Origin: a virus
IMG/VR virus record: IMGVR_UViG_3300025030_000389
Location: 1-25,415 of that record
Length of the DNA stretch: 25,415 bases
Strand: one strand, 5' to 3'
Numbering within the stretch: the first letter of the stretch is position 1; each line of letters begins with the position of its first letter. This document shows, piece by piece, positions 1-24,643 of the stretch. The notes under the pieces were generated by a model. It saw nothing but the letters and a program-made list of their open reading frames with translations. It did not search any database and was not told where the DNA came from. The position numbers and the translations under genes were made by a program.

Positions 1-783
1 CTTTTCCCGCGGCTGGCCGGCATCTTCCGCCGCCTGCGGCTCCTCGGTGCCCTTCGCCTCTTCGGGCGCGACGGGCGGCTCGGAGTGCTCTGCGGCCTTC
101 TCGGCGAGTGCGGACAGGATCGAATGGATTCCCGCGTTCGAGTCCTTTTTCAGGATCTCCTGCAGGCGGAAGAAGTCGTCGACGGTCTTCATCTCCTTGA
201 GCGCGTCCAGGAGCCTGCCCAGGCGGTCGGAGTCCTGCTTCGCGGAATGGATGTCGGCCGCCTCGTTCATCGGGAAGGTCACGGGGCTGAACTCGTACAG
301 CTTGATCTCCGTCAGCTGGCGGACATCCGTTTCGCTGTTGTAGTTGCTCTTGATCACGAGGTAGCCGATGCTCATCTTGTCCACCACGAGATCGTTGATG
401 AGCGTCATCATGTCGCGGCCCATGGCCGTGTCGGAAATGCGGCCTTCCACGAAGAGGCCGATGTCGTCCTCCGCCATCTTCGTCGGGAGGCCGATCGGCC
501 ACCAGGGCATGTGCTGGCTCAGGACCTTGATCTTCGAACGGATCCGCCCGTCGGCTCCGACCTGCGGACCCCGCTCGGCGATCGTCTTCGAGAAGGCGCC
601 CCTCACGATGACGTCCCCGCCGAGGTCTATGTCCCAAGTGGACGCGTACCCCTGGAACAGCATGCCGTTCCCATCCTGGGCGGCCTTGAACTCCATCGAA
701 CCGGGAAGGGTCTTGAACTCCAGGCCGGCGCGGGCCTTCATCGCGGCCTCCATGTCCTTCACGCTGAAAGGGACCGGGAACAT
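1..783 (-). CDS. HK97-type prohead protease (3' end cut off)
   Basis: Serine protease that cleaves the scaffold or capsid N-terminus while the phage prohead matures. The 261 visible residues carry the family landmarks: a GYAS..D..GD.....GAF segment at about 45-64, the catalytic-histidine motif VLSQHMPW (His91), the catalytic-serine motif KMSIGY (Ser138), and the YEFSPVTFPMN segment at about 163-173 that follows it. The C-terminus is acidic and Pro/Ala-rich and runs off the left edge without a stop. The start ATG at 783 has AGGAGG about 8 bases upstream. It follows the portal gene after an 86-base gap, the usual portal-protease-capsid order, so the major capsid gene should lie just outside the window. 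Family assignment is firm; the full length is unknown. Confidence 0.93.
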   Translation of the reverse strand, partial: MFPVPFSVKDMEAAMKARAGLEFKTLPGSMEFKAAQDGNGMLFQGYASTWDIDLGGDVIVRGAFSKTIAERGPQVGADGRIRSKIKVLSQHMPWWPIGLPTKMAEDDIGLFVEGRISDTAMGRDMMTLINDLVVDKMSIGYLVIKSNYNSETDVRQLTEIKLYEFSPVTFPMNEAADIHSAKQDSDRLGRLLDALKEMKTVDDFFRLQEILKKDSNAGIHSILSALAEKAAEHSEPPVAPEEAKGTEEPQAAEDAGQPREK

Positions 784-869
784 TGGCTTCGCCTCCTAGA
801 TCGTCATTCGCTTGAATCGTTCGACGGTAGGGGCGCCCTTCCTGGAAGCGCCTTCAACCGCGGGCAAGA

Positions 870-3230
870 TCATGTCTCGTACACCTCGACGCAACGGCAT
901 TGGATCACGTCCGCCGCGTCCCCGGTCGGGTCGCCAGGAAACATCATCGGCTTGACCAGAGTCCCCGCGTAAGGGTCCGTCATGTTCGGGACGTGCTGGC
1001 CATCCATCCCGACGTGGTTCGTCTTGTCGCTCGGCTGCGTCCCGCGTACGCGGTCGTCACGCGAGGAGAGCCAGGTCCGGCCCTTCACGGCGCCGGACTG
1101 GATCGCGGCCTGCCGGCTTCCATAGTTGGACGCGCCGACGACCTCCGTCCTCGCAATGACATGCGAACGGTAGGTATCGAAACCGGAGTAGATCTGCTTG
1201 ATGAGGCCGGCCGTCTGCGGCACGCTCAGCCCGTCCTCGAACGCCTGGGAGACCACGGCTCGGACGCGCTCCTTCGTGGTGCGGGACACGCGAACGATCT
1301 TCCTCGCCACGAAAGAGCGGACGGCGGCTTGGACCTCGTCCGTCCACGGGTCGAAGATCCACCTCTCCGCGCCGGCCTTCTCCTCGAGGCCCTCGCCTTC
1401 GTCCTTCTTCGTCCGTCCGCCGAGCGTCGTCGCGGTCGCGCCTCCGAAGACCTTGATCATCTCCCGCCAGGACGCGAGGAAGAGGGCCTCCCAGGCGCGG
1501 GCGCTCGAATCGACCTTCGCCTCCCAATCCTCACCGTGGAGGAACGCGTCGACCACGGCGTCGCCCTCGTCGGAGAAGACCGCCCGCGCGCGGCCCTGCA
1601 GCGCGCGCTCATGGCCCTGGCGGCGGCGGTCGAACGCCTTCCAATACCGGACCTTCCGCTCCTCGGTCGTGACGCCCACGGCCTTGAGCTCCTCGGCCAC
1701 CTCAGCGAGGTCCTCGGCTGCCTCCTCGCGTTCCTCATGCGGCGGCAGCGCCTTTCGGCCGGACGCGAGGGAAAGGACCTTCTCCCACTTCGACTCCACG
1801 GCGCCCAGCTCCACGCTGAACGTAGCGTCGATCGGCTTCCCGCCAGGCAGGCCCTTCGCCCCGGACTCCTCTGCCGCGGGGGCCGCCATGGCGTCGGCGG
1901 CCGGCAGGAGGTTGGCCCCGATCCAGGCGACGTCCCAGCCCTTGAACTCCTTGAAGCCGAGCTTGAGCCGCTCGTTGATGACGTTGAACGGGACGGCCAT
2001 CCCGAAGAGCTTCTCGGCGACGTCCACCAGCGCGCCGAGGTCCTCCTGCAGGGCCTCCACGTTGGAGACGTCGTACCTCAGCCGGAACAGGGGACGGCCC
2101 ACCTGGTCGACGCCCCATTCAGTCGCCAGGCCGAGGTTGATCGCGTCCATCAGATCGGACAGCATCGGCAGGACCGTGTCGAGCCAGAAGATCTTCCGTG
2201 CGGTCTGGATGTTCGCGAGGGTAGCATCGTCGTAGATCCCGACGATGGGCGGCGGCACTCGGAACAGCGCGCATATGTCGATCCGCGTCATGCGGCGGCT
2301 TTCGATGAAGTCCAGCTCGGCGGGGGTGAGGGACATCCGCGTGAACTTCGCGTCATTGCCGAGCAGCATGATGTTCCTGGCGTTGTCGGAGCCCATCTTC
2401 TGGGATCGGATGAGCTCCATCGCCTCGTCGTACTGCTCTTGCGAGAGGGACTGCGGGAAGGTGAACGCGCCGTCGGGGACCACGCGGTTTTGCAGGCTGA
2501 CGCGCCACCAGTTGACCGAGTCGACCTCGGTCTCGATGATCTTCTCGCCGGCCTGCATCGGGGACATCCCCCAATACGGGTTCGCCGGGTCCGTGAACTG
2601 TACATGGAGCAGGTCGGCCGGGGCGATCTTCGCCGTCTTCGAGCCCACCTTGTGCTCGTAGTAGGTGATGAAGTCGATCGTGTTCGGGACGGGCTTGATC
2701 TGGTCGGGGTTGAGGGGCCACATCTCCGCGATGCCGCCCTTCAACGCCCCGACGCGGATCTTCGTGGTCGTCGAGTTGCCCGCGAGGTACAGGTGCGCGA
2801 TCATCCGCTGGCGCAGGTCCTGCCCCGTCATGAACGGGTTCGGCCGATCCCACAGGACGCCGAGGGGATGGTCCTGCTCTACGCGGACGTACTCCGCGCC
2901 CTTCTGCAGCTGCTCCACCACCCACGGCACGGACGACCCCGTGTCCATCAGGGCCTTGATGCAGGCGTACACCCAATGCGAGGACTTGAACCCGCCGGAC
3001 ACGGCTTCGGAGGCAGTCCACTCCTTCGCCTGGGGCTTGTTCGCTTGAGTCGTCGGAAGCGCTTGCGCGATGGTGATCGACTTGCGCGCAAGGTCGGCCA
3101 TGTACCGCCGGCCGAGGCTGGTCGCAGCTTCATTCGCGGATGCCACAGGGGCCGGCGGCGCGCCCACCAGGAAACGGCGAAGGAGGCCGACGAGGCCTCC
3201 CGCTTCAGACCATCCCGATCTTGATGGCAT
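870..3230 (-). CDS. Portal protein fused to a MuF-like head morphogenesis domain
   Basis: The portal is the dodecameric ring at one capsid vertex through which DNA is packaged. At 786 residues it is roughly twice a normal HK97-type portal. Residues about 40-500 show portal features: SHWVYACIKALMDTGSSVPW near 85-104, a MTGQDLRQRMIAHLYLAGNS segment, and a RVPPPIVGIYDDATLANI segment typical of the family. After a charged linker, the last ~105 residues match the Mu gpF (minor head protein) pattern: IARTEVVGASNYG, W..S.DDRVR, H..MDGQ, and the final IQCRCVEV. The chosen ATG at 3230 has GGGAGG just upstream and overlaps the terminase gene by 26 bases; the frame is open further upstream, but that part is the terminase gene in another frame. 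Portal-MuF fusions are known in some phages; here it is one uninterrupted frame. Confidence 0.92.
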   Translation of the reverse strand: MPSRSGWSEAGGLVGLLRRFLVGAPPAPVASANEAATSLGRRYMADLARKSITIAQALPTTQANKPQAKEWTASEAVSGGFKSSHWVYACIKALMDTGSSVPWVVEQLQKGAEYVRVEQDHPLGVLWDRPNPFMTGQDLRQRMIAHLYLAGNSTTTKIRVGALKGGIAEMWPLNPDQIKPVPNTIDFITYYEHKVGSKTAKIAPADLLHVQFTDPANPYWGMSPMQAGEKIIETEVDSVNWWRVSLQNRVVPDGAFTFPQSLSQEQYDEAMELIRSQKMGSDNARNIMLLGNDAKFTRMSLTPAELDFIESRRMTRIDICALFRVPPPIVGIYDDATLANIQTARKIFWLDTVLPMLSDLMDAINLGLATEWGVDQVGRPLFRLRYDVSNVEALQEDLGALVDVAEKLFGMAVPFNVINERLKLGFKEFKGWDVAWIGANLLPAADAMAAPAAEESGAKGLPGGKPIDATFSVELGAVESKWEKVLSLASGRKALPPHEEREEAAEDLAEVAEELKAVGVTTEERKVRYWKAFDRRRQGHERALQGRARAVFSDEGDAVVDAFLHGEDWEAKVDSSARAWEALFLASWREMIKVFGGATATTLGGRTKKDEGEGLEEKAGAERWIFDPWTDEVQAAVRSFVARKIVRVSRTTKERVRAVVSQAFEDGLSVPQTAGLIKQIYSGFDTYRSHVIARTEVVGASNYGSRQAAIQSGAVKGRTWLSSRDDRVRGTQPSDKTNHVGMDGQHVPNMTDPYAGTLVKPMMFPGDPTGDAADVIQCRCVEVYET

Positions 3231-4653
3231 CCATTCCCTCCCGCTTTTTCGCCAGCCAGGCCATCGCTCCGGCCGCGATCGTGTCGGGCAAGTGGCCGCT
3301 CCCGTAAATCTCGTTCCACGTCGCGAACTTGTGCTCGCCTTCGACGTAGTCGATCGCCGGGTAGACGATGTCCCTCCGCTCGATCGCCGCGATGTACGAG
3401 GAGAGCATGTCGGCACGAGCCTTCGCGGCGCTGAAGTCGAACCCCTGCGAAGGAACTTCGAGGTAGTCCGCGCACACGCTCCCGACCCCGGTCGCGTCGT
3501 GCACGGACGGCCCCCCGTACCTCTTCACCCTGGCGTTGTGGAAGCCGATCATTTGATCCCACGGACGGCGGCCGGTGCGCGTCCACGCCGCGAGGACGTC
3601 CTGCCCATCCGCGTTCCGCCACATGGAATGAATGACCGTCCAATCGCGGGTCTTCGCCCAATCCGAGCCGTGGTAGAATTTACGCCCGGGGCCCGGGCGG
3701 ATGAAGGTGAGCTCCACGTTCTCCACGCCGGGATGGCGAACTCCCTTGCTCAGCCGCAGGTCGAACAGGTCGCGGACCGCCTCGCGGTCGATCGCCAGGC
3801 CCTCCGGGTTCGGCTCCTGCAGCTCATACTCGGTTTCCCACATCGCCTTGGTGACCTGCTGGCGCTTGCGCTCCACCTCGAGCGGATCGAGCCATCCGCC
3901 CTCGGCGGCCATGCTCTCGCGGTAGCACCAGCGGTAGACCGGCCACCCCTTCTCCGCGGCTCGCTTCAGGATCTCCGTCATGGTTCCATTCGGGTTCTGC
4001 CAGGTCGAGGAGCACACGGTCTGCGACGGGATCCCGGGCCGGCCCATCGTCTGGCCCATCGCCGCATCGAAGATTTCGAGGTCCATCTCATCCGTTTCGT
4101 CGAGCCGCAACCGTTGGGGGTGGGGACCGCGGACGGACTTCTGCGACGCCATCAGCGCCTTGAGGTAGCCCCCGTTGATCAGGTTGGTTTCCGTCTGGGT
4201 CGGATCCGACGCGAGGAGCCAGCGCGGCGCATTCGGGGCCTGCCAGAATTGCCCCTTCGCGTTCGGGTCCTCGCCCGTCATGTACCTGTGGACGCGCTTC
4301 GACTGCTCGCCGGAGCCGCCCAGGAGGTTGACGCTCGCGCCCAGGAGGACTTGCTCGGTGAGGGAGAGCAACGCGAGGAGGAAGGACTTGCCGCCGAAGC
4401 CTCTAGACGCGTGCCACACGCTGATCGGCTGGTGGGCGAAGAAGGCGTCGGAGAAGGCCTCGAACGGCGCCTTATGATGCGGGCAGCACCTCGCGAACGG
4501 GATCCGCACGCCGAAGAGGACGTAGACCAGCTGCCACAGGTGGCGCGGCGACCTCGGGACCACCCGCTGGACGTTGAGGAGCGCGTTGAGGTCCCGCCTT
4601 ACGTCGGACTCCGGCGGTTGCTCAGGATGGCTGCGGATCGGTCCGGTCAACAT
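3205..4653 (-). CDS. terL: Terminase large subunit
   Basis: ATP-driven motor and nuclease that packages phage DNA through the portal. The 482 residues show the ATPase half with a Walker A-type loop HASRGFGGKS (81-90) and a Walker B with catalytic acid LRLDETDE (182-189), then an RNase H-fold nuclease half with acidic residues in YHGSDWAKTRDW (Asp331), SVHDATGVG (Asp386) and LPDTIAAGAMAW (Asp457). Length is normal for the family. The start ATG at 4653 overlaps the small-subunit gene by 32 bases; the ribosome site there is weak (GGCGGGCGG), consistent with coupling to the upstream gene. Downstream it overlaps the portal start. Assignment is firm; the packaging strategy (cos or pac) cannot be read from it. 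Confidence 0.95.
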   Translation of the reverse strand: MLTGPIRSHPEQPPESDVRRDLNALLNVQRVVPRSPRHLWQLVYVLFGVRIPFARCCPHHKAPFEAFSDAFFAHQPISVWHASRGFGGKSFLLALLSLTEQVLLGASVNLLGGSGEQSKRVHRYMTGEDPNAKGQFWQAPNAPRWLLASDPTQTETNLINGGYLKALMASQKSVRGPHPQRLRLDETDEMDLEIFDAAMGQTMGRPGIPSQTVCSSTWQNPNGTMTEILKRAAEKGWPVYRWCYRESMAAEGGWLDPLEVERKRQQVTKAMWETEYELQEPNPEGLAIDREAVRDLFDLRLSKGVRHPGVENVELTFIRPGPGRKFYHGSDWAKTRDWTVIHSMWRNADGQDVLAAWTRTGRRPWDQMIGFHNARVKRYGGPSVHDATGVGSVCADYLEVPSQGFDFSAAKARADMLSSYIAAIERRDIVYPAIDYVEGEHKFATWNEIYGSGHLPDTIAAGAMAWLAKKREGMDAIKIGMV

Positions 4654-5317
4654 AGCCGCCCGCCGGGGGGCCTTCCCCTCCCGCCAGGGACTCCAGCATC
4701 GAGAGGCGGTCCTTGAGGGTGAGGTTCTCCACCTGGATCGGCCGCCCGTCCTCGCCCGCCAGCTCCAGCGTCCTCGGGTCGAACAGGCGGATCTTCGTGA
4801 GTTCGCACAGGCGCTTGTCGAGCTCCAACATCTTCGTGACGGCGTTCATGTCGCCAGCCAGGACGGCGGGATACACGGCCTGCATGGCGCCGAGGCACCT
4901 GTCGATCATCCGCTCCTTGAGCTTGCCCGCCTCCACCACGATCTCCACGGCTCGCCTGGCTTGCGCGCGCGCCACCAGCCGCCGCGCGCCGCCGTCCCCG
5001 ATCTTGGTCCCGTACTTCTTGTTCACCTGAACAGCGATTTCGATGAAGGTCAGTTCGGCGCGGCGGCACTCCAACGCGAACCGCTCCCGCTCGAGCGATT
5101 CCACGTCGGCATCGGTCAGGAGGTCGTCGGGGGGGATCGCCTTCTTGAGCGCCCGCTGGATCGCCTTGCTGGCGGCCTGCTTCGTGTACGGCCGCCCGAA
5201 CTTCTTCTCGACGGCCGCCACGATCTCCGCAAGCGACGCGCCATCGTTGCGCATCTTCGTGCAGAAGTTCTCCATCGTTTCCCCGTCGAGCTTCCGCCTG
5301 CTGCTCTTGCTCTCCAT
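4622..5317 (-). CDS. terS: Probable terminase small subunit
   Basis: The small terminase recognises phage DNA and hands it to the large subunit. The call rests on position directly upstream of TerL and on the 231-residue protein itself: a basic N-terminus, an HTH-like stretch around 25-55 (ASLAEIVAAVEKKFG then YTKQAASKAIQRALKK), a second HTH-like part at about 95-115 (FIEIAVQVNKKYG), a helical middle and a Pro/Gly-rich tail, as expected for a TerS-like oligomer. The ATG at 5317 has GGAGG 7 bases upstream and starts right after the TGA of the cytosine methyltransferase, so the modification and packaging genes form one transcript. No single motif proves the family. Confidence 0.75.
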   Translation of the reverse strand: MESKSSRRKLDGETMENFCTKMRNDGASLAEIVAAVEKKFGRPYTKQAASKAIQRALKKAIPPDDLLTDADVESLERERFALECRRAELTFIEIAVQVNKKYGTKIGDGGARRLVARAQARRAVEIVVEAGKLKERMIDRCLGAMQAVYPAVLAGDMNAVTKMLELDKRLCELTKIRLFDPRTLELAGEDGRPIQVENLTLKDRLSMLESLAGGEGPPAGGYVDRTDPQPS

Positions 5318-5318
5318 G

Positions 5319-6392
5319 TCAGGCCTCCAGGATCTTCCGCAGGTTGCAGGCGACCGCGCGCATCAGCAGCGGCGGCACGCTGTTCCCGATGCGGCTCATC
5401 CGGTCCTTGTACTCGCCGGTCAAGATGAAGTCGTCGGGGAACGAGGCGAACCGCATGGCCTCCGCGACGTGGATGAACCGCGGCTCGGCCCAATGCACGA
5501 ACGAGGAGAAGGAGTGGTCGCTGGCGCTCTTGACGATGGTCGGGCACGGCCGCTCCGGGTCGAGCTTCGCCAGGACGTTGAAGTGCGTCCCGCTCTCGTG
5601 CAGTGCGCTGGCGTTGTCGCCCGGCGGGATGGACTTCCACCACTCGACATACTTCTCCGCGATGTCCTTCTGCGGCACGGCCTCCCGCTGCTCGCGGGTG
5701 AGGCCGCGGACGGCCACCTTCGCGGGGATCGGCCAGGTCTTCGGCTCCGGGTGCGACGGCTCGAGCCCGAGGTCCTCCCGCACGCCGACGAAGATCACTC
5801 GCTCGCGGCTCTGCGGGACCCCGAAATACTTCGCGTTGAGGAGGCGCACGGCCACGCGATACCCGGCCTTCTTGAGCTCCTCCAGGATCTCCACGAAGAG
5901 CAGGCGCATCTTGCCTTTGACCATCCCGCTCACGTTCTCCATGACGAACGCCCGCGGCTTGAAGACGCCCAGGAGGCGGACGTATTCACGGAACAGGCCA
6001 TTGCGCGGATCGTCCGTCTGACGCCGGCCGGCGGTGCTGAAGCCCTGGCACGGCGGGGACCCGTCGAGGACGTCGAGCTGCCCGGGCACGAGGCCGGTGA
6101 GGTAAAGGGCCTCCTCGCCTTCGAGCTTGGTCACGTCGCCATGGTATACCTCGACGTCGGGGAAGTTGGCGCGCAGGCACTCCGCCGCGTTCGCGTCCCA
6201 TTCGACCGCCAGCAGCTCCCTGAAGCCCGCCATGGAGTAACCGAGGCTCGAGCCTCCGCACCCGGCGAACAGGGAGACCACGGTCGGCGCGTCGGCCTTC
6301 CGCGGCGCCACGTGGTCGGCCCACGCGGCCTCCAGATCGGCGGCATAGTCGCCGTGGTAGAAGAGGGCCGGGACCTCCATCGTCGCGCTCAT
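5319..6392 (-). CDS. DNA (cytosine-5) methyltransferase 1
   Basis: Transfers a methyl group from S-adenosylmethionine to C5 of cytosine in DNA. All main motifs are present in the 357 residues: motif I VVSLFAGCGGSSLGYSMAGF (about 38-57), motif IV DGSPPCQGFS with catalytic Cys115, motif VI FVMENVSG, motif VIII QSRERVIFVG (194-203) and motif X RIGNSVPP (334-341). The target-recognition region between VIII and X is short (about 130 residues). The start is placed at ATG 6392, which forms an ATGA overlap with the ParB-like gene upstream; an in-frame ATG at 6413 is less likely. It ends just before TerS. There is no restriction enzyme next to it, so protection of phage DNA from host enzymes, or marking it for packaging or gene control, is more likely than a restriction-modification pair. 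The recognition site is unknown. Confidence 0.95.
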   Translation of the reverse strand: MSATMEVPALFYHGDYAADLEAAWADHVAPRKADAPTVVSLFAGCGGSSLGYSMAGFRELLAVEWDANAAECLRANFPDVEVYHGDVTKLEGEEALYLTGLVPGQLDVLDGSPPCQGFSTAGRRQTDDPRNGLFREYVRLLGVFKPRAFVMENVSGMVKGKMRLLFVEILEELKKAGYRVAVRLLNAKYFGVPQSRERVIFVGVREDLGLEPSHPEPKTWPIPAKVAVRGLTREQREAVPQKDIAEKYVEWWKSIPPGDNASALHESGTHFNVLAKLDPERPCPTIVKSASDHSFSSFVHWAEPRFIHVAEAMRFASFPDDFILTGEYKDRMSRIGNSVPPLLMRAVACNLRKILEA

Positions 6393-6940
6393 CTCGGGAA
6401 CTCGAATCCGCACTCAGGGCACTTCGCCATGACCACGCCCTCCGCCAGGGTTTCATCGAGGAGCTTGAACTCCACGCGCGGCGGGGCGATCTGCGCCGCC
6501 AGGCCGGACAGGAGGCTCCCCACGGCCGCGCTCCGGTTGCGGAATGACGCGAGGAGGGAGGCCAGGCGCTCGCGGCGCACGCCGGCCAGCTGGCCCACGC
6601 GGTCGAAGGTCGCCACCACGACGCGGCCCTCCTCCTCCGACAGGTCCGTGACCAGGCACGGGACCTTCCGCTTCCCGGCCTGCTTCGCCCTCGCGTGGCC
6701 GTCGAGGATCTGGAACAGGCCGTCGCCGAGCGGGCGCACGATGACGGCCCCTGCGAAGCCGACCTTCTCCAGGATCCAGGCCAGCGCCGAGGTCTGCTCC
6801 TCCGGGTGCTCCCGCCAGTTCTCCGGGTGCGGCACGAGCTTGTCCGCTCGGATGCGGTCGAACCCGACGATCCGGTTCCGGAAGACCTTCTCGATCGTCT
6901 TCTCTACTGCCGCGGGAACTTCGCGCTGCATTGCGGGCAT
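6389..6940 (-). CDS. ParB/Srx-like protein A with Cys-pair tail
   Basis: The 183-residue protein shows the ParB N-terminal fold pattern: DKLVPHPENWREHP (about 32-45), a predicted helix, GAVIVRPLGDGLFQILDGHA (the GHxR-like box), then KVPCLVTDLSEEEGRVV. ParB/Srx-fold proteins bind nucleotide and often DNA; phage copies commonly sit beside DNA methyltransferases. The C-terminus ends in CPECGFEFPR, half a zinc ribbon. Its ATG at 6940 is preceded by a run of GGGAGG motifs at about 10 bases; GTG 6949 is an alternative but lies too close to that site. It overlaps the paralogue upstream by 37 bases and the methyltransferase downstream by an ATGA. There is no ParA partner, so plasmid-type partitioning is unlikely. 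Role not known. Confidence 0.82.
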   Translation of the reverse strand: MPAMQREVPAAVEKTIEKVFRNRIVGFDRIRADKLVPHPENWREHPEEQTSALAWILEKVGFAGAVIVRPLGDGLFQILDGHARAKQAGKRKVPCLVTDLSEEEGRVVVATFDRVGQLAGVRRERLASLLASFRNRSAAVGSLLSGLAAQIAPPRVEFKLLDETLAEGVVMAKCPECGFEFPR

Positions 6941-7485
6941 GTCAGGCACGCCTCCCTCCCCCCGCCCTTCGCGGGGATCTTGGCCCGGTCCACGACCTCG
7001 GCCACGGCCTCCAGCCGCATGTCCGCCAGCGCCTTGTCCACGGCGTCGACGCCGGTCGCGATCGAGCCAGCCAGGCCGGCCATCTTCGCGTGGTTCGTCT
7101 TCGCCATCGCGCTGATCGGGTCGTAGACCGTGAGGAGCTCGTCGGCCTCCTCGATCGACTCGATGTCCGTCAGGAGGATCGGCACCTCCTGATCCGGGTG
7201 ATGGGACTCCGCGATCTCCTGGCGCATGTGGCCGTCGACCAGCATCGGACGGTCCCTGTCGAGGACCAGCGTCGAGCCGTCCTCCAGCTCCACCGTCGCG
7301 CCAGCCTTCACCGTGATCGTGAGCGCGGCTCCGACGAATCCAATCGCATTGAGCAGCCCTTCCATCAGGTCCCGCTGGGCCGGCGGATGATCACGCCAAT
7401 TCCGCGGATTGGGGAGGAGCTCTCCCGCCTTCACGTTGATGAGACCGAGTATCCGGTCCCGGACCTCTCCCGACGCCTTCGCCAT
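6904..7485 (-). CDS. ParB/Srx-like protein B, paralogue of its neighbour
   Basis: 193 residues with the same layout as the next gene downstream: GELLPNPRNWRDHP near 20-33 matches DKLVPHPENWREHP in the neighbour, LVDGHMRQEIA is the GHxR box, EVPILLTDIESIEEADELL follows, and the tail CPQCSAKFPRQ mirrors CPECGFEFPR. An insertion (GATVELEDGSTLVLDRDRP) lengthens the middle. The two genes are therefore probably a tandem duplication that has diverged. The start ATG at 7485 has GGAGG 5 bases upstream, better than the longer frame starting at 7527. The stop is TAG. Function is unknown; the shared Cys-pair tails suggest that zinc binding or pairing of the two proteins matters. Confidence 0.82.
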   Translation of the reverse strand: MAKASGEVRDRILGLINVKAGELLPNPRNWRDHPPAQRDLMEGLLNAIGFVGAALTITVKAGATVELEDGSTLVLDRDRPMLVDGHMRQEIAESHHPDQEVPILLTDIESIEEADELLTVYDPISAMAKTNHAKMAGLAGSIATGVDAVDKALADMRLEAVAEVVDRAKIPAKGGGREACLTCPQCSAKFPRQ

Positions 7486-7652
7486 GACGCCTCCACGTTC
7501 GCGCCCGACCGCCCCGCCCTCCTGCACGGAAGACCGAAGCCTCCCGCATCCGCCGGGGTCGAGTCCGGCGCGGGAGGCTTCGGCGGAGGCTCCCGCAGAG
7601 AGATGGAGCCTCCTTCCACGGGAGTGCCATGGAGATTCGGGGCGCGCATCAT
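7431..7652 (-). CDS. Possible small Pro-rich ORF overlapping ParB-like B
   Basis: A 73-codon frame starts at ATG 7652, with GAGGGGG about 4 bases upstream, and overlaps the start of the ParB-like gene by 55 bases. The product would be Pro/Gly-rich (SLREPPPKPPAPDS) and basic at the end, with no known domain. Third-position GC is high in the first two thirds, which favours coding, but the same stretch contains two strong hairpins that could explain the base composition. If it is not a gene, the 210 bases between 7486 and 7696 are a structured leader for the ParB-methyltransferase genes. I do not recognise it. Confidence 0.35.
   Translation of the reverse strand: MMRAPNLHGTPVEGGSISLREPPPKPPAPDSTPADAGGFGLPCRRAGRSGANVEASWRRRRERSGTGYSVSST
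7534..7583 (-). repeat. Perfect 14-base inverted repeat hairpin
   Basis: Arms 7534-7547 and 7570-7583 (CCGAAGCCTCCCGC and its exact complement) enclose 22 bases that can pair further (CGCCGG with CCGGCG). There is no T tract, so it is not a classical terminator. It lies some 50-100 bases upstream of the ParB-like B start in the minus-strand transcript and could be an RNA structure, a protein-binding operator or a processing site. Confidence 0.6.
7585..7613 (-). repeat. Second hairpin, 9-base arms
   Basis: Arms GGAGGCTCC (7585-7593) and GGAGCCTCC (7605-7613) are exact complements with an 11-base loop. It sits two bases from the larger hairpin, giving two stacked stem-loops in the leader upstream of ParB-like B. 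The arms contain GGAGG, which in the minus-strand RNA would hide ribosome-site-like sequence. Confidence 0.5.
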
Positions 7653-7696
7653 GCTGCCCCCTCGGCGCACAACGGCCTCGCGGCCCGCGCAGAATA

Positions 7697-7876
7697 CTAG
7701 TTGGCCAGGTCCTTCACGTCAATGGCCCCGCCGGAAGTCACGGTCGCATGGGTGACGGTGTGGCCGTTGTTCCGCAGCTCCTCCACCGCCACGGCCGCGA
7801 TGGCCTCGGCGTTGTACTCCACCTCCGGATCCCCATGGGGTCCGACGCCTTCGATGTTGATCGTCCAGTTGCCCAT
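7697..7876 (-). CDS. Small conserved-type phage protein, 59 aa
   Basis: The sequence begins MGNWTINIEGVGPHG and continues with an acidic segment and a predicted alpha-beta fold (AEAIAAVAVEELRNNGHTVTHATVTSGG). Small proteins that begin like this are seen in phage genomes, from memory, but have no assigned function. The ATG at 7876 has GGAGG only 2 bases upstream, a short spacing; the frame is open further upstream but that part lacks coding character and crosses a terminator-like hairpin. The stop is TAG. It is separated from the genes on both sides by about 200 bases with hairpins, so it may be its own transcription unit. Confidence 0.7.
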   Translation of the reverse strand: MGNWTINIEGVGPHGDPEVEYNAEAIAAVAVEELRNNGHTVTHATVTSGGAIDVKDLAN

Positions 7877-7925
7877 GCCCTCCAGTTCGCGCCGCCAGCC
7901 GGCCTCCCTCCTCGCGTTTGAACGG

Positions 7926-7966
7926 AAAGAAAACGGCCCGCGGCGGGTGGTACTCCGACACGGGCC
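7926..7966 (-). terminator. Probable intrinsic terminator
   Basis: On the minus strand GGCCCG (7961-7966 side) pairs with CGGGCC (7935-7940 side) across a 20-base loop, followed by GTTTTCTTT, a T tract that is rare in this GC-rich DNA. It follows the gene ending at 8072 and precedes the 59-aa gene. A weak TATAGT -10-like hexamer (complement at 7979-7984) lies just upstream with no clear -35. Apart from these, nothing else is seen in the 195-base gap 7877-8071. Confidence 0.5.
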
Positions 7967-8071
7967 GGCGCCCAAGGCACTATAGGATACCGAACGAAGT
8001 TGCTTGCTTCTCGCGAGAGATCGGACTTCCCTCCATCCACCCGAAGCCGCCCGTGGACCGTGGCGGACGTC

Positions 8072-8323
8072 CTAGCCGCCCTGGAGCTCGAATCTGCCGA
8101 GGACCTTCCGCCCCTCCCTCACCTCGACGTACCCGGCCGGCACGGACTCATCCAGTTCCACGGGATAGCCCCCAAGGTCGATGGACGCGCACTCCTTCGC
8201 GTACGGCGGCAAGTCGGCCGGGTTGATGTGGATCTTCCTGGCCGGCAGGCTTACCACGACGTCGCCCGAGACATCCCCGGCAGGCTCACCATTGATCGAC
8301 AGGCGTCCCGGACCGGCATCCAC
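8072..8323 (-). CDS. Hypothetical protein, 83 aa
   Basis: I do not recognise this protein. It is rich in beta-type residues (DVVVSLPARKIHINPADLPP, then VEVREGRKVLGRFELQGG) and mildly acidic, suggesting a small soluble beta-strand protein. The start is placed at GTG 8323, three bases after the TGA of the upstream gene and with AAGG upstream; the open frame extends farther but there it is the shadow of the neighbour. The stop is TAG. It is the last gene before the terminator at 7926-7966. Confidence 0.6.
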   Translation of the reverse strand: MDAGPGRLSINGEPAGDVSGDVVVSLPARKIHINPADLPPYAKECASIDLGGYPVELDESVPAGYVEVREGRKVLGRFELQGG

Positions 8324-8325
8324 CG

Positions 8326-8622
8326 TCAGGCCTTCCCGCCGCCGGCGTACCGCGCGCCGAGGGCCTCGCGGATCGTCTTGTCGATCTCCAGCAGGAGCTT
8401 CACGGCCTGCTCCGGTTGCCAGTCCGCCCGGACCTTGATGGTCGGCTGGACCTCGCCCTTCGCGTTGGTCGTCAGGGTCAGACTGTACTGCCATTCGCGG
8501 GGCCGCTCGGCCTCCTCCACCTTCTCCGCGATGAGCTTCTTCAGGCGGGCCTCCAGGTCTTGGACTCCCGCCTCAGTCGTTGGAGATGTCGCCGAAGTCG
8601 GCGTGGCCGTCGCTTCCGTCAT
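8326..8622 (-). CDS. Hypothetical helical protein, 98 aa
   Basis: Starts at ATG 8622 with GGGAGG 9 bases upstream. The N-terminus is Thr/Ala/Ser-rich and disordered-looking; residues 20-45 are a charged helix (LEARLKKLIAEKVEEAERP); then a beta segment (WQYSLTLTTNAKGEVQPTIKVRA) and a helix (EQAVKLLLEIDKTIREAL). No known domain. The same frame stays open upstream to 8913 through a membrane-type segment; base usage in 8623-8746 argues that this is read-through of a non-coding frame, so the internal start is preferred. Confidence 0.6.
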   Translation of the reverse strand: MTEATATPTSATSPTTEAGVQDLEARLKKLIAEKVEEAERPREWQYSLTLTTNAKGEVQPTIKVRADWQPEQAVKLLLEIDKTIREALGARYAGGGKA

Positions 8623-8962: not shown

Positions 8963-9622
8963 CTACGGCGCACCGGCCATGAAAGACCGTACGCGGCCAC
9001 GCGGCCGTTGGAACACCCAGAAGGTGGAGTCGTACCGCCGCGAGTGGACCTGCCGATCGTGGTTGTGGCCCTTGATGCGGTTCTTCGAAACCAGGGTGAA
9101 CCGGTCCACGTCCACCCATCCGACCTTCACGGCCATGCCGAGCACGGCGCAGTCCGTCGCGACGAACTTCCCGGCTTCGATGAGGGCCTGGCACTTAAAG
9201 GCCAGGATCCCCGCCGGCGCGGCCACCCGCCACAGTTCCCGCAGCGCGTCGGCGTACATCGCATGGAGCTCCCGCTGGTTGAAATACGAGGCATACAGGG
9301 CGCCCATGCGCGACCCCTCGCCGGCGTGGTGGAGGAACGGCGGGTCGAACATCGTCGAGGCCACGATCCCGGACTCGAGGGGGAGGCTCCGCACGTCGGC
9401 TTTCTCGACGCCCGGGATCGACGGCGCCAGGTCGAACTTCCATCGCGGCTGGGGGATGTCGCCGCCGCGGTACATCGCCCCCCTCGCGTAGGTCGGATCG
9501 AGCTCGAACCCGTCGGGCGCCCAGAGGTCCATGATCCACCGGAGGATCCGCTTCTGGGAGAAGGACACGCTCCGCGCCGGCTCCTTCGTGCCCGGCAGCT
9601 CCTCCTGGATCGCGATGGTCAC
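8963..9622 (-). CDS. DNA amino-methyltransferase (N6-adenine or N4-cytosine), DPPF type
   Basis: SAM-dependent methylation of an exocyclic amino group in DNA. Motif IV is MFDPPFLHH near residues 87-95; an N-terminal ELDPTYARGAMYRGG at about 38-52 is typical of phage members of the family, and LRELWRVAAPAGILAFKCQ is the usual helix-strand after motif IV. At 219 residues it lacks room for a large target-recognition domain. The GTG start at 9622 has GGGGAGG 6 bases upstream and a GTGA overlap with the HTH gene; the long open frame upstream of it is that gene read in another frame. The stop is TAG. DPPF alone does not decide between adenine and cytosine as the target. Confidence 0.85.
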   Translation of the reverse strand: MTIAIQEELPGTKEPARSVSFSQKRILRWIMDLWAPDGFELDPTYARGAMYRGGDIPQPRWKFDLAPSIPGVEKADVRSLPLESGIVASTMFDPPFLHHAGEGSRMGALYASYFNQRELHAMYADALRELWRVAAPAGILAFKCQALIEAGKFVATDCAVLGMAVKVGWVDVDRFTLVSKNRIKGHNHDRQVHSRRYDSTFWVFQRPRGRVRSFMAGAP

Positions 9623-10047
9623 GGCCGGCCTCCCCTGTGCAGGTCGAGGTTCTCGGCCTCCTCCAGGAGCTTCTCCGCGTCGTCCCGCAGCAGGCCCGCG
9701 AACCGCTCGAGGATCGCATCCATCGAAACGAACTCGCCCTCCGGCAGGCCCTCCATCAAGATCCGCACGTTCTCCCGCACGATCCGCCGGAACAGACCGT
9801 CGCAGTAATCGAGGAGGTCCGTCCTGCCCTCGATCTGTTCCACGATCTCCGCCGACGTCCACGGCCTCCGGACCGGCTCGCCCCTCCGCTGGTCGCGCCG
9901 GTAGAGGACCATCAGTTGGTGGACGTAGGACGGGCTGAAGCCCATCTCCCTCGCGGCCGCGGCCTGCGACCCGAGCTTCTCCACCAGGCGGGCCACCTCC
10001 GCCCGTCGCTCGTACGCCTTCTGCCGAACCTCCCTCGTCGCTCCCAT
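9619..10047 (-). CDS. Small HTH protein, 142 aa
   Basis: Residues about 12-45 (RRAEVARLVEKLGSQAAAAR, then EMGFSPSYVHQLMVLYRR) fit a helix-turn-helix of the sigma or transposase type, with basic residues after the second helix. The C-terminal half is acidic and helical. It probably binds DNA. The ATG at 10047 shares its A with the TGA of the upstream gene, and the gene ends in a GTGA overlap with the amino-methyltransferase, so the two are translated together; it may act as a regulator or specificity partner of that enzyme, which is inference from position. Confidence 0.65.
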   Translation of the reverse strand: MGATREVRQKAYERRAEVARLVEKLGSQAAAAREMGFSPSYVHQLMVLYRRDQRRGEPVRRPWTSAEIVEQIEGRTDLLDYCDGLFRRIVRENVRILMEGLPEGEFVSMDAILERFAGLLRDDAEKLLEEAENLDLHRGGRP

Positions 10048-10262
10048 CAGGACGCGCTCCGGTTCGGATTGCAGTAGGGGCACAACATCGCATTGTGATG
10101 GTTGTCCCCGCTCGGGCGGAACTGCAAGTCGAACAGGCTGTCCACCCGGTAGGCCAGCGCGAGGAGGAGCGCCTTCTCGCGCTCCGTCGTCGAGGATGTC
10201 CGTGCGAACGTCCTCGCCTCCTCTGCCAGCTCCCTCGAGTCCATCGTCATGAAATCCGTCAC
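10047..10262 (-). CDS. Small CPYC-tailed protein, 71 aa
   Basis: Starts at GTG 10262 in a GTGA overlap with the methyltransferase upstream, with GGAGG 7 bases before it. The body is a charged helix (SRELAEEARTFARTSSTTER) followed by ALLLALAYRVDSLFDLQF, and the end is HHNAMLCPYCNPNR, a histidine-cysteine cluster that could bind a metal. It resembles a half zinc ribbon that would need a partner. No known family. It ends in a TGATG overlap with the HTH gene. Confidence 0.6.
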   Translation of the reverse strand: MTDFMTMDSRELAEEARTFARTSSTTEREKALLLALAYRVDSLFDLQFRPSGDNHHNAMLCPYCNPNRSAS

Positions 10263-11683
10263 GCCGCGGCCTCCATCTCCATCGCAAAGTTGGCGCGGAC
10301 CAGCGCGGCCGCGAAATGCGGCGGCACGCTGTTCCCCGCCAGGCGGACCATCGTCTTCCTGGTCATCGGCTTCCCGTCGACGTCCGTCGCGATGACGTAG
10401 TCCTCCGGGAAGCCCTGGGCACGGTAGAGCTCGCGCGGCTCCAGCATCCGCATGCCGATGTCGGCGACCTCGTGCGCGACCCCGTCCACCATCACGAGGT
10501 TGAACCTGTCCTTCGTCGTGACGGTCGGCAGCGGCAGGTCGAGCCGGAGGTTCTGGTCGGTCCCATAGTAGGCCGTCAGGAAGGCCGCGGACTCCTCCTC
10601 CCGCCCGCCCGTCAGGCCCACCTCGACGAGCGCGTGATGGTCGATCGCGGTCACGGTGTCCATCGGCAGGTCGAGCTGCTTCCCGCTCCCCTCGTGGCCC
10701 CCGTAGTGCTTGACCAGCAGGGCGGCCGCGACGGCGAACTTCTCCCCACCGGAGACCACGGTCCCGAGCGGCCTGTGCAGGTCGGGCACCCGCGGCGCCT
10801 GCCCCTCGCGTTCCCCGTACCCTACTTGGACCAGGGTCGGCCCCACGACGCCCCCGGCTCCGCGCACGAGGAACGGCTTCTCCGCGAGGAGGACGTGCTT
10901 CCACACGCCACGAGCGATCCGCCGGAGGGTCTTCTCCGCGAGGGGCCTGTTCACATCGAACCCGAGGCTCTTCGCCTGCGCCCGGGTCAGGAAGATCGAC
11001 GGGCACGGCAGACTCCAATCGATGCACTCCGCCGCGGTGCGGTACGCGAGGAGGGAAGGGCCGTGGGTCGGCGCCGGCCACGCGATCGGCAGGCCGTCGC
11101 GGCGCGCCACCACGAACAGGCGCTTGCGCATCGTCGGCGCCCCGTAGTCGCAGGCGGACAAGAGGCGCCACTCGACCGCGTACCCGAAGGCCCGCAGGGC
11201 GGCGACCCACTTGCGGAAAGTCTCGCCCTTCCGCTCCGGGATCGGCCTGTCGTCGGCGTCGAGCGGGCCCCAATCCCGGAACTCCGCGACGTTCTCCAGG
11301 ACGATCACGCGCGGCCCCACGTCCCGCGCCCACCTGACCACGACCCAGGCCAGCGCGCGGACCCGCTTCGAGACAGGCGCGGCACCCTTCGCCCGCGAGA
11401 AGTGCCGGCAGTCCGGGGACGCCCACAGAAGGCCGACACGCCGGCCGCACACGGCGCAACGCGGGGCCACCTCCAGCACGTCGGAGCGGTAATGGATCGT
11501 GTCCGGGTGGTTGCGCTCGTGGAGGGACACGGCTGCGGCGTCGTGGTTCACGGCCACGTCGGGCCCGCGCCCGAGCGCCCACTTGATCCCCTCGCTGGCG
11601 CCGCCTCCGCCCGCGAACAGGTCCACGACGATCTCCCCCGGCTCGAGCTCCACCGGCGGCGGGAACACGATCGGCGCGCTCAT
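10259..11683 (-). CDS. DNA (cytosine-5) methyltransferase 2, SPDC variant
   Basis: C5-cytosine methyltransferase of 474 residues. Motif I VVDLFAGGGGASEG (19-32), motif VI VLENVAEF (128-135), motif VIII APTMRKRLFVVARRDG (about 182-197) and motif X LAGNSVPPHF near 448-457 are clear. The catalytic loop reads WASPDCRHFSRAKG, so the usual Pro-Cys is Asp-Cys (Cys92); phage enzymes with SPDC are known, from memory, so it is probably active. A CAVC pair stands just before the loop. The region between VIII and X is about 250 residues, far larger than in the first enzyme, so its target differs. The ATG at 11683 forms an ATGA overlap with the zinc finger gene. Confidence 0.93.
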   Translation of the reverse strand: MSAPIVFPPPVELEPGEIVVDLFAGGGGASEGIKWALGRGPDVAVNHDAAAVSLHERNHPDTIHYRSDVLEVAPRCAVCGRRVGLLWASPDCRHFSRAKGAAPVSKRVRALAWVVVRWARDVGPRVIVLENVAEFRDWGPLDADDRPIPERKGETFRKWVAALRAFGYAVEWRLLSACDYGAPTMRKRLFVVARRDGLPIAWPAPTHGPSLLAYRTAAECIDWSLPCPSIFLTRAQAKSLGFDVNRPLAEKTLRRIARGVWKHVLLAEKPFLVRGAGGVVGPTLVQVGYGEREGQAPRVPDLHRPLGTVVSGGEKFAVAAALLVKHYGGHEGSGKQLDLPMDTVTAIDHHALVEVGLTGGREEESAAFLTAYYGTDQNLRLDLPLPTVTTKDRFNLVMVDGVAHEVADIGMRMLEPRELYRAQGFPEDYVIATDVDGKPMTRKTMVRLAGNSVPPHFAAALVRANFAMEMEAAA

Positions 11684-12255
11684 CGGAGGTTCTCCGCGGC
11701 GGCTGGCGGGTCGAACAAGCCGTCCCCCGCGGCGGCCGCGATCGCCTCCACGGCGCACCCGCCCAGGCACAAGACGCGGACCTCCTGCGCCTCGAACCCC
11801 CATCGGACGGCGAGGCGCTTCTCCCCGCCGCACGCCGGGCACCTGTAGAGCGCGTCGGCATCGAGGCCCTCCAGCGGCAGGACGCGAGGAGCGGGCCTCT
11901 TGCAGCCGTCGTGCTCCTCGTCCGATCGGTTCAGGCAGTCCGGATCGCCCACGGGACATCCGGGATCCCCCTCGCCGCCGGTCAGGAGATGCTCCACGAG
12001 GCCGGCCTGATCATCGAGCGCGTCGGCCTTCTCGTGCAGCACCAGCTCGTCGACCGGCCACCCCTCTTCGAGGCCTGTCCTGACGGCGTCCGCCATCTCC
12101 CTGGCCATGTCCACGAGGCGCCCGCCCTCGCGGAACAACGGCGTCCGCGTGAAGTCATGGTCCGCGGCCATCTCCATTCCACAGCGCCCGCATGTGTTCC
12201 GGTACAGCGCCCGTTCATGCTCATGCCCATCGTCCGGCGAAGCCTGGAATGACAT
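11680..12255 (-). CDS. CHC2-like zinc finger protein, 191 aa
   Basis: Two metal-binding regions are visible: CGRCGMEMAADH near the N-terminus (about 22-33) and a C-terminal YRCPACGGEKRLAV then VLCLGGCAVEAIAAA, ending GDGLFDPP. The second has the C..C (about 20 residues) C...C spacing and the following helix seen in primase-type CHC2 zinc fingers of phage and plasmid replication proteins. There is no TOPRIM or helicase domain, so it is not a full primase; a nucleic-acid-binding accessory is more likely. A middle part has a further four Cys (CPVGDPDC, C..). ATG 12255 has GAGG about 9 bases upstream. It opens the methyltransferase operon, behind the conserved leader element. Confidence 0.65.
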   Translation of the reverse strand: MSFQASPDDGHEHERALYRNTCGRCGMEMAADHDFTRTPLFREGGRLVDMAREMADAVRTGLEEGWPVDELVLHEKADALDDQAGLVEHLLTGGEGDPGCPVGDPDCLNRSDEEHDGCKRPAPRVLPLEGLDADALYRCPACGGEKRLAVRWGFEAQEVRVLCLGGCAVEAIAAAAGDGLFDPPAAAENLR

Positions 12256-23412: not shown

Positions 23413-23645
23413 TCCATCCCCTCCGTATTCCCGGAACGGCACAACCGCGCCGTTTCCGAATCTTCGCCGGCCGCGGCAGCCTGGCCGGCCTCCCGCTCCT
23501 CGCGGCGCCGGCGGGCCTCCTCGCGGATCGCCGATACGGCCATCCACGTCCACCGGCAGACGTTCGTCACGGGGGGCGCCCCCGTGCCCCCCATTCCCCG
23601 TTGCAGGAACCGCGTGGTTGTCGCGTTTCTGGCATCCGTCTTCAT
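23409..23645 (-). CDS. Hypothetical protein, 78 aa
   Basis: ATG 23645 has AAGGAGG 7 bases upstream and an ATGA overlap with the Cys-rich gene. The product has a Thr/Gly-rich beginning, VCRWTWMAVSAIREEARRRR and an acidic end. A short coiled coil (EEARRRREEREAGQ) is likely. Not recognised. Confidence 0.55.
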   Translation of the reverse strand: MKTDARNATTTRFLQRGMGGTGAPPVTNVCRWTWMAVSAIREEARRRREEREAGQAAAAGEDSETARLCRSGNTEGME

Positions 23646-24643
23646 CGGGCGACCTCCTTCAGCGTGGGTCTGCCGGAGGAAGGATCCCCTCCCGCTCCCC
23701 CGGGGGTTGAAGGGGCCCACCCCTTCAGGAACACGAGCTTCGCCTTTTCGGCAATGGCGGCCGCGGCGGGCCCGTGCGGCTCGAAGACGACTGTCTTCCG
23801 CGGGTACTTCACGCACACCGGACAGGTGGCGCAGGTGACGTCCTTCGACAGTTGCGCGGGACATTTCACCAGGTCGAGGCTGGTCATGCGGCGCAGGGTC
23901 GCGACCTCGGAGAAGGGGGCAACGACGGCGCCGCCGGGCTCCCACCTGTCGGACCGCCGCACGACGAACCCGACGTGCGCGAGGTCACGGATCAGGTCGG
24001 GGACATCCGGGGTCTCGAAGTGGGTGTAAGTCCACGCGAGGGGGACGTGCGCGCCGAACTCGTGCTGAAGCCGGGAACACAGGGCCTCGAGTCCGCGGAC
24101 GTAGCCCCAATCCACCGAGTCGGCGTCCTTCCCGAAGTCGCCCGCCACGTGCCCCCGGGACTGGAGCCAGTACCTCACGGCTCCGACCATTGCGACGGCG
24201 GCGGCCACGACGGACGCGGAGACGTCCACCAGGGCGGCGGCCTGGACCCATCCGACGAAGGAATGCAGCGCGTAACAGGAGCCCGGCCCGCGCGCCCCGG
24301 GGTCGTCCGGGTCGGCCCAGGCCGGCGGGTCCGCCCACCGGTACGGACACGAGCGATGGCAGGTCGTGCCGCCGTCCTTCTTCGACTCGATCGGGCGGTA
24401 CCAGCCCGGGACGGCGGTCTTTCCGTTCAGGCGGCTTACCGGGTTGCACCGGAGGCCGAGGTCCTCGACGCACCGCTGCAGCTTGCCGACGAAAGTCGGC
24501 ATCCCGATCGGCTTCTCCCACCCGCCCACGTCCAACAGGTGGCGCAGGAGGCGATCGAGCTTGCGCCCGTCGACCTCCCCGCTCGGCTTGCAGATCGTGC
24601 CCGTCCTGGTCGCCGGCACGAACGCTTCGGCCTTTCCCCGCAT
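23642..24643 (-). CDS. Cys-rich phage protein, possible metalloenzyme, 333 aa
   Basis: Cys cluster 1 is CHRSCPY (95-101) with GSCYAL (Cys123) following; cluster 2 is KCPAQLSKDVTCATCPVC (Cys261, 271, 274, 277) followed by VVFEPHG. Between them come YWLQSRGHVAGDFGKDADSV and LAWTYTH, a motif layout I remember from an uncharacterised but widespread phage family (perhaps DUF7227; not checked). The Cys sets could hold zinc or an iron-sulphur cluster. ATG 24643 has GAGG 6 bases upstream. Function unknown; it leads the early block after the DUF6011-like gene. Confidence 0.6.
   Translation of the reverse strand: MRGKAEAFVPATRTGTICKPSGEVDGRKLDRLLRHLLDVGGWEKPIGMPTFVGKLQRCVEDLGLRCNPVSRLNGKTAVPGWYRPIESKKDGGTTCHRSCPYRWADPPAWADPDDPGARGPGSCYALHSFVGWVQAAALVDVSASVVAAAVAMVGAVRYWLQSRGHVAGDFGKDADSVDWGYVRGLEALCSRLQHEFGAHVPLAWTYTHFETPDVPDLIRDLAHVGFVVRRSDRWEPGGAVVAPFSEVATLRRMTSLDLVKCPAQLSKDVTCATCPVCVKYPRKTVVFEPHGPAAAAIAEKAKLVFLKGWAPSTPGGAGGDPSSGRPTLKEVAR

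Follow-up and report, generated by a model that had tools for sequence, protein, structure and literature searches.

ParB-type proteins are already known in phages as fusions to DNA methylases and, as ParBc-domain proteins, as neighbors of modification enzymes; the treatment of phage base-modification systems by Iyer et al. in 2013 may discuss ParB proteins in such operons. Chromosomal ParB has its own C-terminal domain, and the CTPase residues of canonical ParB/Noc proteins are the Gln of an NPxQPR box and the Glu of a GERR box. For the fusions (phrog_498), one report describes Bce_0392, in which a ParB domain with nicking activity is fused to an adenine methylase (PMC5512222). In a 2025 study of CmoX contigs, ParBc (PF02195) proteins are reported and their role there is stated to be unknown (PMC12783734). 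Finally, DpdB, called a ParB-like ATPase, acts together with DpdA in the insertion of dPreQ0 into DNA (PMC12839542).

Here, we analyzed a 25,415-base IMG/VR virus record (IMGVR_UViG_3300025030_000389), possibly a fragment, which in its whole length is called the window below. Two of its genes, A and B, encode ParB-like proteins and lie directly upstream of a C5-type methyltransferase gene. As in the phage ParB-methyltransferase fusions, a ParB-type core is found by a DNA methyltransferase domain. However, A and B stand alone, are doubled, and carry C-terminal tails with a Cys pair, and the enzyme is a separate protein of the C5 rather than the N6/N4 class. The CmoX contigs likewise combine a ParBc protein with a C5-type SPPC enzyme, an arrangement of which our relative L029 (ParB-CmoA-CmoX-like) is an example, and the available part of that study contains no account of tandem copies, Cys-pair tails, or tail matching. 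The DpdB/DpdA system also joins a ParB-like protein to a base-modifying enzyme, and TGT-like genes also follow ParB-like genes among our relatives, though the window enzyme is a different one. The chromosomal ParB, Noc, and PadC proteins share the predicted fold of B. In contrast to them, A and B have NPxNWR for NPxQPR and DGHxR for GERR, and carry the Cys-pair tail where ParB has its C-terminal domain, and no ParA was found in this possibly fragmentary record. The open-licence literature searched yielded no description of a C5 system split into separate proteins with Cys-pair tails, of its tandem version, or of a general match between tail and enzyme.

The genes are transcribed from the minus strand in the order A, B, C5 methyltransferase, TerS-like, TerL-like, portal-MuF protein, and head maturation protease (Table 1). 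An earlier note on this DNA had described A, B, the methyltransferase, and TerS as overlapping or abutting, and the coordinates confirm it: A extends past the start of B, an ATGA at 6392-6389 is shared by B and the methyltransferase, and the methyltransferase stop (5319) abuts the TerS-like ATG at 5317. The name TerS follows from the position of the gene and an HTH-like sequence; the protein has no Pfam terminase match. Its best PHROG bears an RNase E label (1e-8), and as a query it had no match in phages. The portal gene after the TerL-like gene is a clear match; the link of the A/B block to the terminase looks positional. The same note saw no ParA, and indeed no ParA-type ATPase (PF13614) was detected in the 25.4-kb record, which may be a fragment, with controls positive in 14 of 14 cases. 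A second C5 methyltransferase encoded in the window has no ParB adjoining. Searches of the record for Mom and TET/JBP genes gave no match, but as no positive control responded, they carry no weight.

Table 1. Coordinates of the A/B gene block and the features within it
Feature	Position	Strand	Remarks
Gene A: predicted ParB/Srx-fold protein, 193 aa	7485-6904	-	insertion ahead of DGHMR box; CPQC tail
A tail: predicted Cys-pair hairpin, residues 180-191	6913..6948	-	modeled strands E180-182 and E189-191 flank C183/C186
Gene B: predicted ParB/Srx-fold protein, 180-186 aa	6389..6949	-	start ATG 6931, ATG 6940, or GTG 6949
B tail: predicted Cys-pair hairpin, residues 168-179 (counted from M6931)	6395..6430	-	modeled strands E168-170 and E177-179
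Predicted C5 cytosine DNA methyltransferase	5319..6392	-	PF00145 E 4.1e-67; ATG at 6392; ORF opens with GTG at 6413
TerS-like gene	4622..5317	-	assigned by position and HTH-like sequence only
TerL-like gene (weak)	3205..4653	-	phrog_9 E 1.5e-4

A and B align by BLASTP over their full length, tails included, with 28% identity (E 1e-20), which identifies them as real but old paralogues. The P.NWR.HP motif and DGH box that had been proposed as common to the two are both present, as PNPRNWRDHP and DGHMR in A and as PHPENWREHP and DGHAR in B. Their tails, CLTCPQCSAKFPRQ in A and CPECGFEFPR in B, do have CPxC and FPR in common, but A contains a third Cys, and "near-identical" was a somewhat strong wording. 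B matched PF02195 below the Pfam cutoff (E 1.4e-4, 22.3 bits versus 26.3) and A had no Pfam match; in the PHROG search, phrog_498 was matched by B at 3e-11 and by A at 0.0086. AlphaFold2 single-chain models built on family alignments had mean pLDDT values of 85.3 for B (m09064794888c) and 85.0 for A (m75b666582e06). The B model best matched ParB-CDP 6sdk in the PDB (Z 14.4, rmsd 3.9, 130 aligned), with further matches to 7ng0 (Z 14.2) and 6ryk (Z 13.0) and the families Noc, PadC, and KorB represented; sulfiredoxin (Srx; 6ky4, Z 9.3, rmsd 2.8, 85 aligned) and free serine kinase ranked lower. ParB structures were also the best matches of the A model (7bm8, Z 11.7, rmsd 5.1, 146 aligned; 6sdk, Z 11.5, rmsd 3.6, 136 aligned). 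The structure-match listing (VIA-align) is incomplete for ParB/Srx relatives, and absence from it is uninformative. Together, these models predict the ParB/Srx superfamily fold for the N-terminal core of both proteins. Canonical ParB reads parS through an HTH domain; in the B model, the helices at residues 99-148 superpose loosely on ParB (rmsd about 4), and no HTH family was matched.

HMMER aligns NPKNWR with the NPxQPR-type box and DGHxR with GERR. Across the 258 listed relatives, N-x-R-x-H is found in 252 and [DG]GHxR in 250, whereas GERR and NPxQPR are found in none. The Gln and Glu of the canonical ParB/Noc CTPase thus appear, from the alignment, to be replaced throughout the A/B family: the change of NPxQPR to NPxNWR and of GERR to DGHxR would keep the outline of the pocket and lose the residues held to be catalytic in CTP hydrolysis, which makes nucleotide use by A and B uncertain. 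Q52A and E93A mutants are named in the PDB titles of matched structures.

Each tail is modeled as a short hairpin that brackets its Cys pair. Among 34 aligned proteins with such tails (29-40% identical to B), C171 and C174 of the B tail are invariant in 34 of 34, as are the columns A29, L32, N38, R40, H42, Q46, G58, D77, G78, H79, R81, D110, and A116. A match of B to PF13717 (15 bits) fell far under the cutoff of 30.3. A matching CxxC half was sought in neighboring methyltransferases and TerS proteins; of those inspected, a single one, at L041, has it, and that case is a chance one. With synonymous sites near saturation, dN/dS was about 0.25 for C5-linked tails and 0.24 for Mom-linked tails, compared with 0.13 and 0.10 for the respective cores; such purifying selection favors a role of the tail at the protein level. 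Since both copies in tandem loci bear Cys-pair tails, the half ribbons of A and B might pair with each other.

The window enzyme is predicted from its sequence to be a C5 cytosine DNA methyltransferase (PF00145): a catalytic Pro-Cys lies in an SPPC motif at the column of CmoX C98, and the ENV motif is present as ENVSG. At the position of CmoX R350, which corresponds to Asn-304 of HhaI, the window enzyme has Asn; Arg occurs in L029 only among 39 rows. The carboxymethyltransferase chemistry of CmoX is ruled out for the window enzyme by this Asn, and plain 5-methylcytosine would be the expected product.

Relatives were collected in scans with B, a three-row alignment, and relatives L041 and L028 as queries, together with phage matches; two of the scans contributed their best 80 of 125 and best 80 of 429 matching loci. 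Protein A as a query against genome contigs found no relative. Counting the window, the collection comprises at least 232 loci and at least 258 ParB-like ORFs. After 90% deduplication, 79 of the 184 listed relatives are fused to N6/N4 or other domains and 105 stand alone. The genome contigs encoding relatives are mostly Planctomycetota, which makes phages of that phylum likely carriers of the family. For the analysis of neighbors, 104 of the 258 ORFs were used (non-fused, complete, 700 bases downstream, 90% deduplicated), and representatives of the partner groups were named via Pfam or PHROGs. The partners of these 104 listed stand-alone relatives were ABC-GNAT (32), C5 (28), Mom (7), TET/JBP (6), TGT-like (6; phrog_887), TAGT (5), PAPS-reductase-like (3), a methyltransferase-like family (3; L056, named from its sequence, with no Pfam or PHROG match), FkbM (1), and radical SAM (1), with no label for 12. 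The Mom genes are identified by PF25680 (E 5.9e-42 in L019 and 1e-54 in L177), with Mom matches present also in L108 and L172. L081, L086, L027, and L043 were set by hand to TGT-like, and PHROG matches later backed L081, L027, and L043; later matches supplied four more labels (two TGT-like, one FkbM, one radical SAM).

The type of tail follows the neighboring enzyme. A Cys-pair tail is present in 34 of the 104 listed stand-alone relatives, 28 of them at C5 genes (9 of these 28 being distal tandem copies scored as C5), 4 at Mom genes, and 2 without an assigned enzyme (L035 and L043). All 28 C5 neighbors have the Cys pair, and none of the 70 listed relatives lacking it neighbors a C5 gene. By comparison, 31 of the 32 ABC-GNAT neighbors end near ...CRVLTL, and the TET/JBP, TAGT, and TGT-like groups likewise have tail types of their own. 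With 85% deduplication (n = 101 listed; complete ORFs, core of at least 125 aa, 1 kb downstream required), proteins with Cys-pair tails were C5-adjacent in 26 cases and not in 6, versus 0 of 69 for the others (Fisher 9.6e-19, kinship ignored). Most of the non-C5 Cys-pair proteins in this table precede a Mom gene, so the Cys pair alone is insufficient to name the enzyme.

Cores, by contrast with tails, are interchangeable between enzymes. For 88 labeled proteins (the 16 of the 104 unlabeled at that stage were left out, and L029 was set by hand to C5 despite an intervening CmoA-like gene), tail similarity depended on the enzyme in every bin of core identity. For cores 80%-100% identical, tails scored a median of 28 in pairs with different enzymes (46 pairs) versus 91 in pairs sharing an enzyme (35 pairs); for cores 50%-60% identical, the medians were 20 (1445 pairs) versus 78.5 (412 pairs). 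The bin-averaged difference in tail score was 55.9, whereas 500 label shuffles gave at most 19.7. Nearly identical cores carry different tails and enzymes in L145 and L149 (C5 and Mom, 96%), L013 and L065 (C5 and TAGT, 94%), and L041 and L111 (C5 and ABC-GNAT, 93%). Furthermore, some fusions to methyltransferase-type domains have cores 87-95% identical to those of Cys-pair members (L041/L091, L013/L062, and L013/L073; the two fused cores are 93% and 95% identical to that of L013). On a tree of the cores, which is poorly resolved (135 columns, 11 of 85 branches starred), explaining the enzyme labels takes at least 34 changes, and three starred sister pairs have different enzymes (L075/L108, L069/L058, and L054/L019). 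A test of independent pairs on supported branches had only 3 pairs, with significance unreachable: the enzyme followed the tail in about 0.9 of 3 for C5 alone and in 2.9 of 3, with none opposite, for C5 or Mom.

Whether the pair always accompanies the methyltransferase, as the earlier note had wondered, can be answered in the negative: among listed C5-linked loci, near-copies included, 17 of 34 are tandem and 17 of 34 have a single C5-linked ParB-like gene, so the pair is recurrent and not obligatory. In all 17 tandem C5 loci, both copies bear Cys-pair tails, and in L040 two ParBs before one enzyme both have TET-type tails. The match between tail and enzyme is a stronger rule than tandem pairing. 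Some contigs encode several ParBs, in the orders ParB-FkbM-ParB-TET-ParB-methyltransferase-like-TerS-TerL-portal (L030), ParB-radical SAM-ParB-ABC-GNAT (L201), and ParB-TET-ParB(Cys pair)-C5 (L181). In the core tree, the proximal copies of other tandem loci cluster; A and B form very long branches without close kin, and their duplication may therefore be independent or simply old.

We favor, at roughly even confidence, the reading in which A and B serve the adjoining C5 methyltransferase as partner subunits, with the ParB core on DNA and the tail as the coupling. The ParB/Srx core would handle DNA and probably bind nucleotide in the ParB/Srx pocket. The Cys-pair hairpin, which may hold a metal, would couple the core to the methyltransferase, or A to B, with both then working for one enzyme. 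The resulting complex could keep the enzyme on phage DNA, leaving much of the genome methylated, most simply as a defense against host restriction. Of the joint roles suggested previously, loading or guiding the methyltransferase is the best reading, since both the paralogues and the Cys-pair tails are genuine, recur among relatives, and go with the C5 methyltransferase; packaging is not supported. The fusions of near-identical cores to methyltransferases provide a Rosetta-stone argument for a partnership of core and enzyme, contigs with one ParB per enzyme (L030, L201, and L181) support it as well, and DpdB acting with DpdA is a precedent for a ParB-like partner of a modifying enzyme. Points against it are the second C5 methyltransferase of the window, which lacks a ParB neighbor, the sharing of the Cys-pair tail with Mom, and the chance that a tail encoded between the core and the enzyme gene could travel by simple linkage.

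Such linkage without contact is the strongest rival, though we regard it as unlikely. Recombination in the conserved ParB core would move tail and enzyme jointly, and their match would be historical. Cores of 93-96% identity with different tail-plus-enzyme blocks are what a breakpoint between core and tail would yield, and the minimum of 34 label changes on the core tree agrees with this. However, tails remain similar even below 50% core identity, their substitutions are mostly synonymous, and the distal tandem copy, one gene away from the enzyme, bears a like tail. We consider it quite improbable that the ParB-like proteins are instead nucleotide-regulated nickases or regulators beside modification, which would introduce nicks where DNA is unmodified or dampen its modification: by itself this leaves enzyme-matched tails and the use of one ParB per enzyme unexplained, even if the ParB domain of Bce_0392 is reported to nick nonspecifically (PMC5512222) and DndB is described as a proposed negative regulator (PMC12839542). 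That the A/B pair selects or marks DNA for packaging with the terminase, the other role raised in the earlier note, we judge very unlikely. In the window and in many relatives, the block does come directly ahead of the TerS, TerL, and portal genes, but a TerS-like gene was detected in the 4 kb downstream of only 52 of the 104 listed stand-alone relatives (with a limited detector and short contigs), TerS types vary between loci, and the partner that stays constant is an enzyme of base modification. Com of phage Mu controls translation of mom, and the Cys-pair tail might be a comparable small element that controls the overlapping enzyme gene at the level of RNA or translation, its codons lying directly ahead of or across the next gene's start and Mom being among the partners, but this is the least credible account, being unnecessary in fused N6/N4 proteins and at odds with the quite different tails of other partners.

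Extending the partner-subunit reading to the family, we tentatively suggest, with less than even confidence, that one ParB/Srx module is a universal DNA-loading platform of phages, many of them probably phages of Planctomycetota. Each enzyme would be plugged in via a specific tail or a fusion, with one ParB per enzyme, and the window would encode a metal-linked A-B heterodimer carrying the C5 methyltransferase. The enzymes concerned would be C5, N6/N4, CmoX, Mom, TET/JBP, TAGT, TGT-like, ABC-GNAT, PAPS-reductase-like, and radical SAM. Interchangeable cores with matched tails make the role of ParB proteins beside modification enzymes experimentally testable, and tail matching offers a handle for finding new phage DNA-modification enzymes, such as the ABC-GNAT group behind 32 of the 104 listed relatives. 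If the module is indeed such a platform, the tail of an uncharacterized ParB would predict the DNA modification of its phage, and uncharacterized genes that follow such ParBs would encode new modification enzymes.

The L029 genes, a ParB-like Cys-pair protein, a CmoA-like gene and a C5 enzyme that carries Arg at the position of Arg-350 in CmoX (a C5-type carboxymethyltransferase), are likely a carboxymethylcytosine set. The set found in L003, another locus of a relative with a ParB-like gene, is likely a base hypermodification set. PPCS replaces PPCQ, and Met occupies the same CmoX position (Asn-304 of HhaI), in 25 of 39 aligned C5 methyltransferase rows, including those of loci L041, L028, L046, L110, L153, and L183, and these residues suggest that such enzymes may have an unusual cofactor or product.

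Coordinates of ParB-associated features in relatives and of further genes in the window
Locus	Feature	Coordinates	Strand	Match
L029	ParB-like Cys-pair protein, CmoA-like gene, C5 enzyme	2919-5373		
L003	Stand-alone ParB-like protein, then TET/JBP, amino acid:DNA transferase, P-loop nucleotide kinase	4977-8563		
L035	Cys-pair ParB-like protein, no modification enzyme assigned downstream	764-1324		
L043	Cys-pair ParB-like protein, no modification enzyme assigned downstream	5050-5559		
Window	DNA methyltransferase	8963-10093	-	PHROGs phrog_24333, 9.4e-35
Window	Second C5 methyltransferase	10259-11959	-	PF00145, 7.6e-28
Window	Restriction alleviation protein Lar (very weak match)	11680-12255	-	0.0065
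Window	DUF7227 protein	23642-24643	-	3.2e-11

The Cys-pair ParB-like gene of L035 directly abuts TerS. In the window, the second C5 methyltransferase contains a CAVC insertion and has no ParB-like gene beside it; the other DNA methyltransferase in the table had no Pfam match.

Downstream of 32 of the 104 stand-alone ParB-like genes (L196, L075, L021, and L226 among these loci), we observed an ABC-ATPase plus GNAT protein, which in L196 matches phrog_11143 (labeled "function unknown" in PHROG). This protein is a candidate DNA-modification enzyme.
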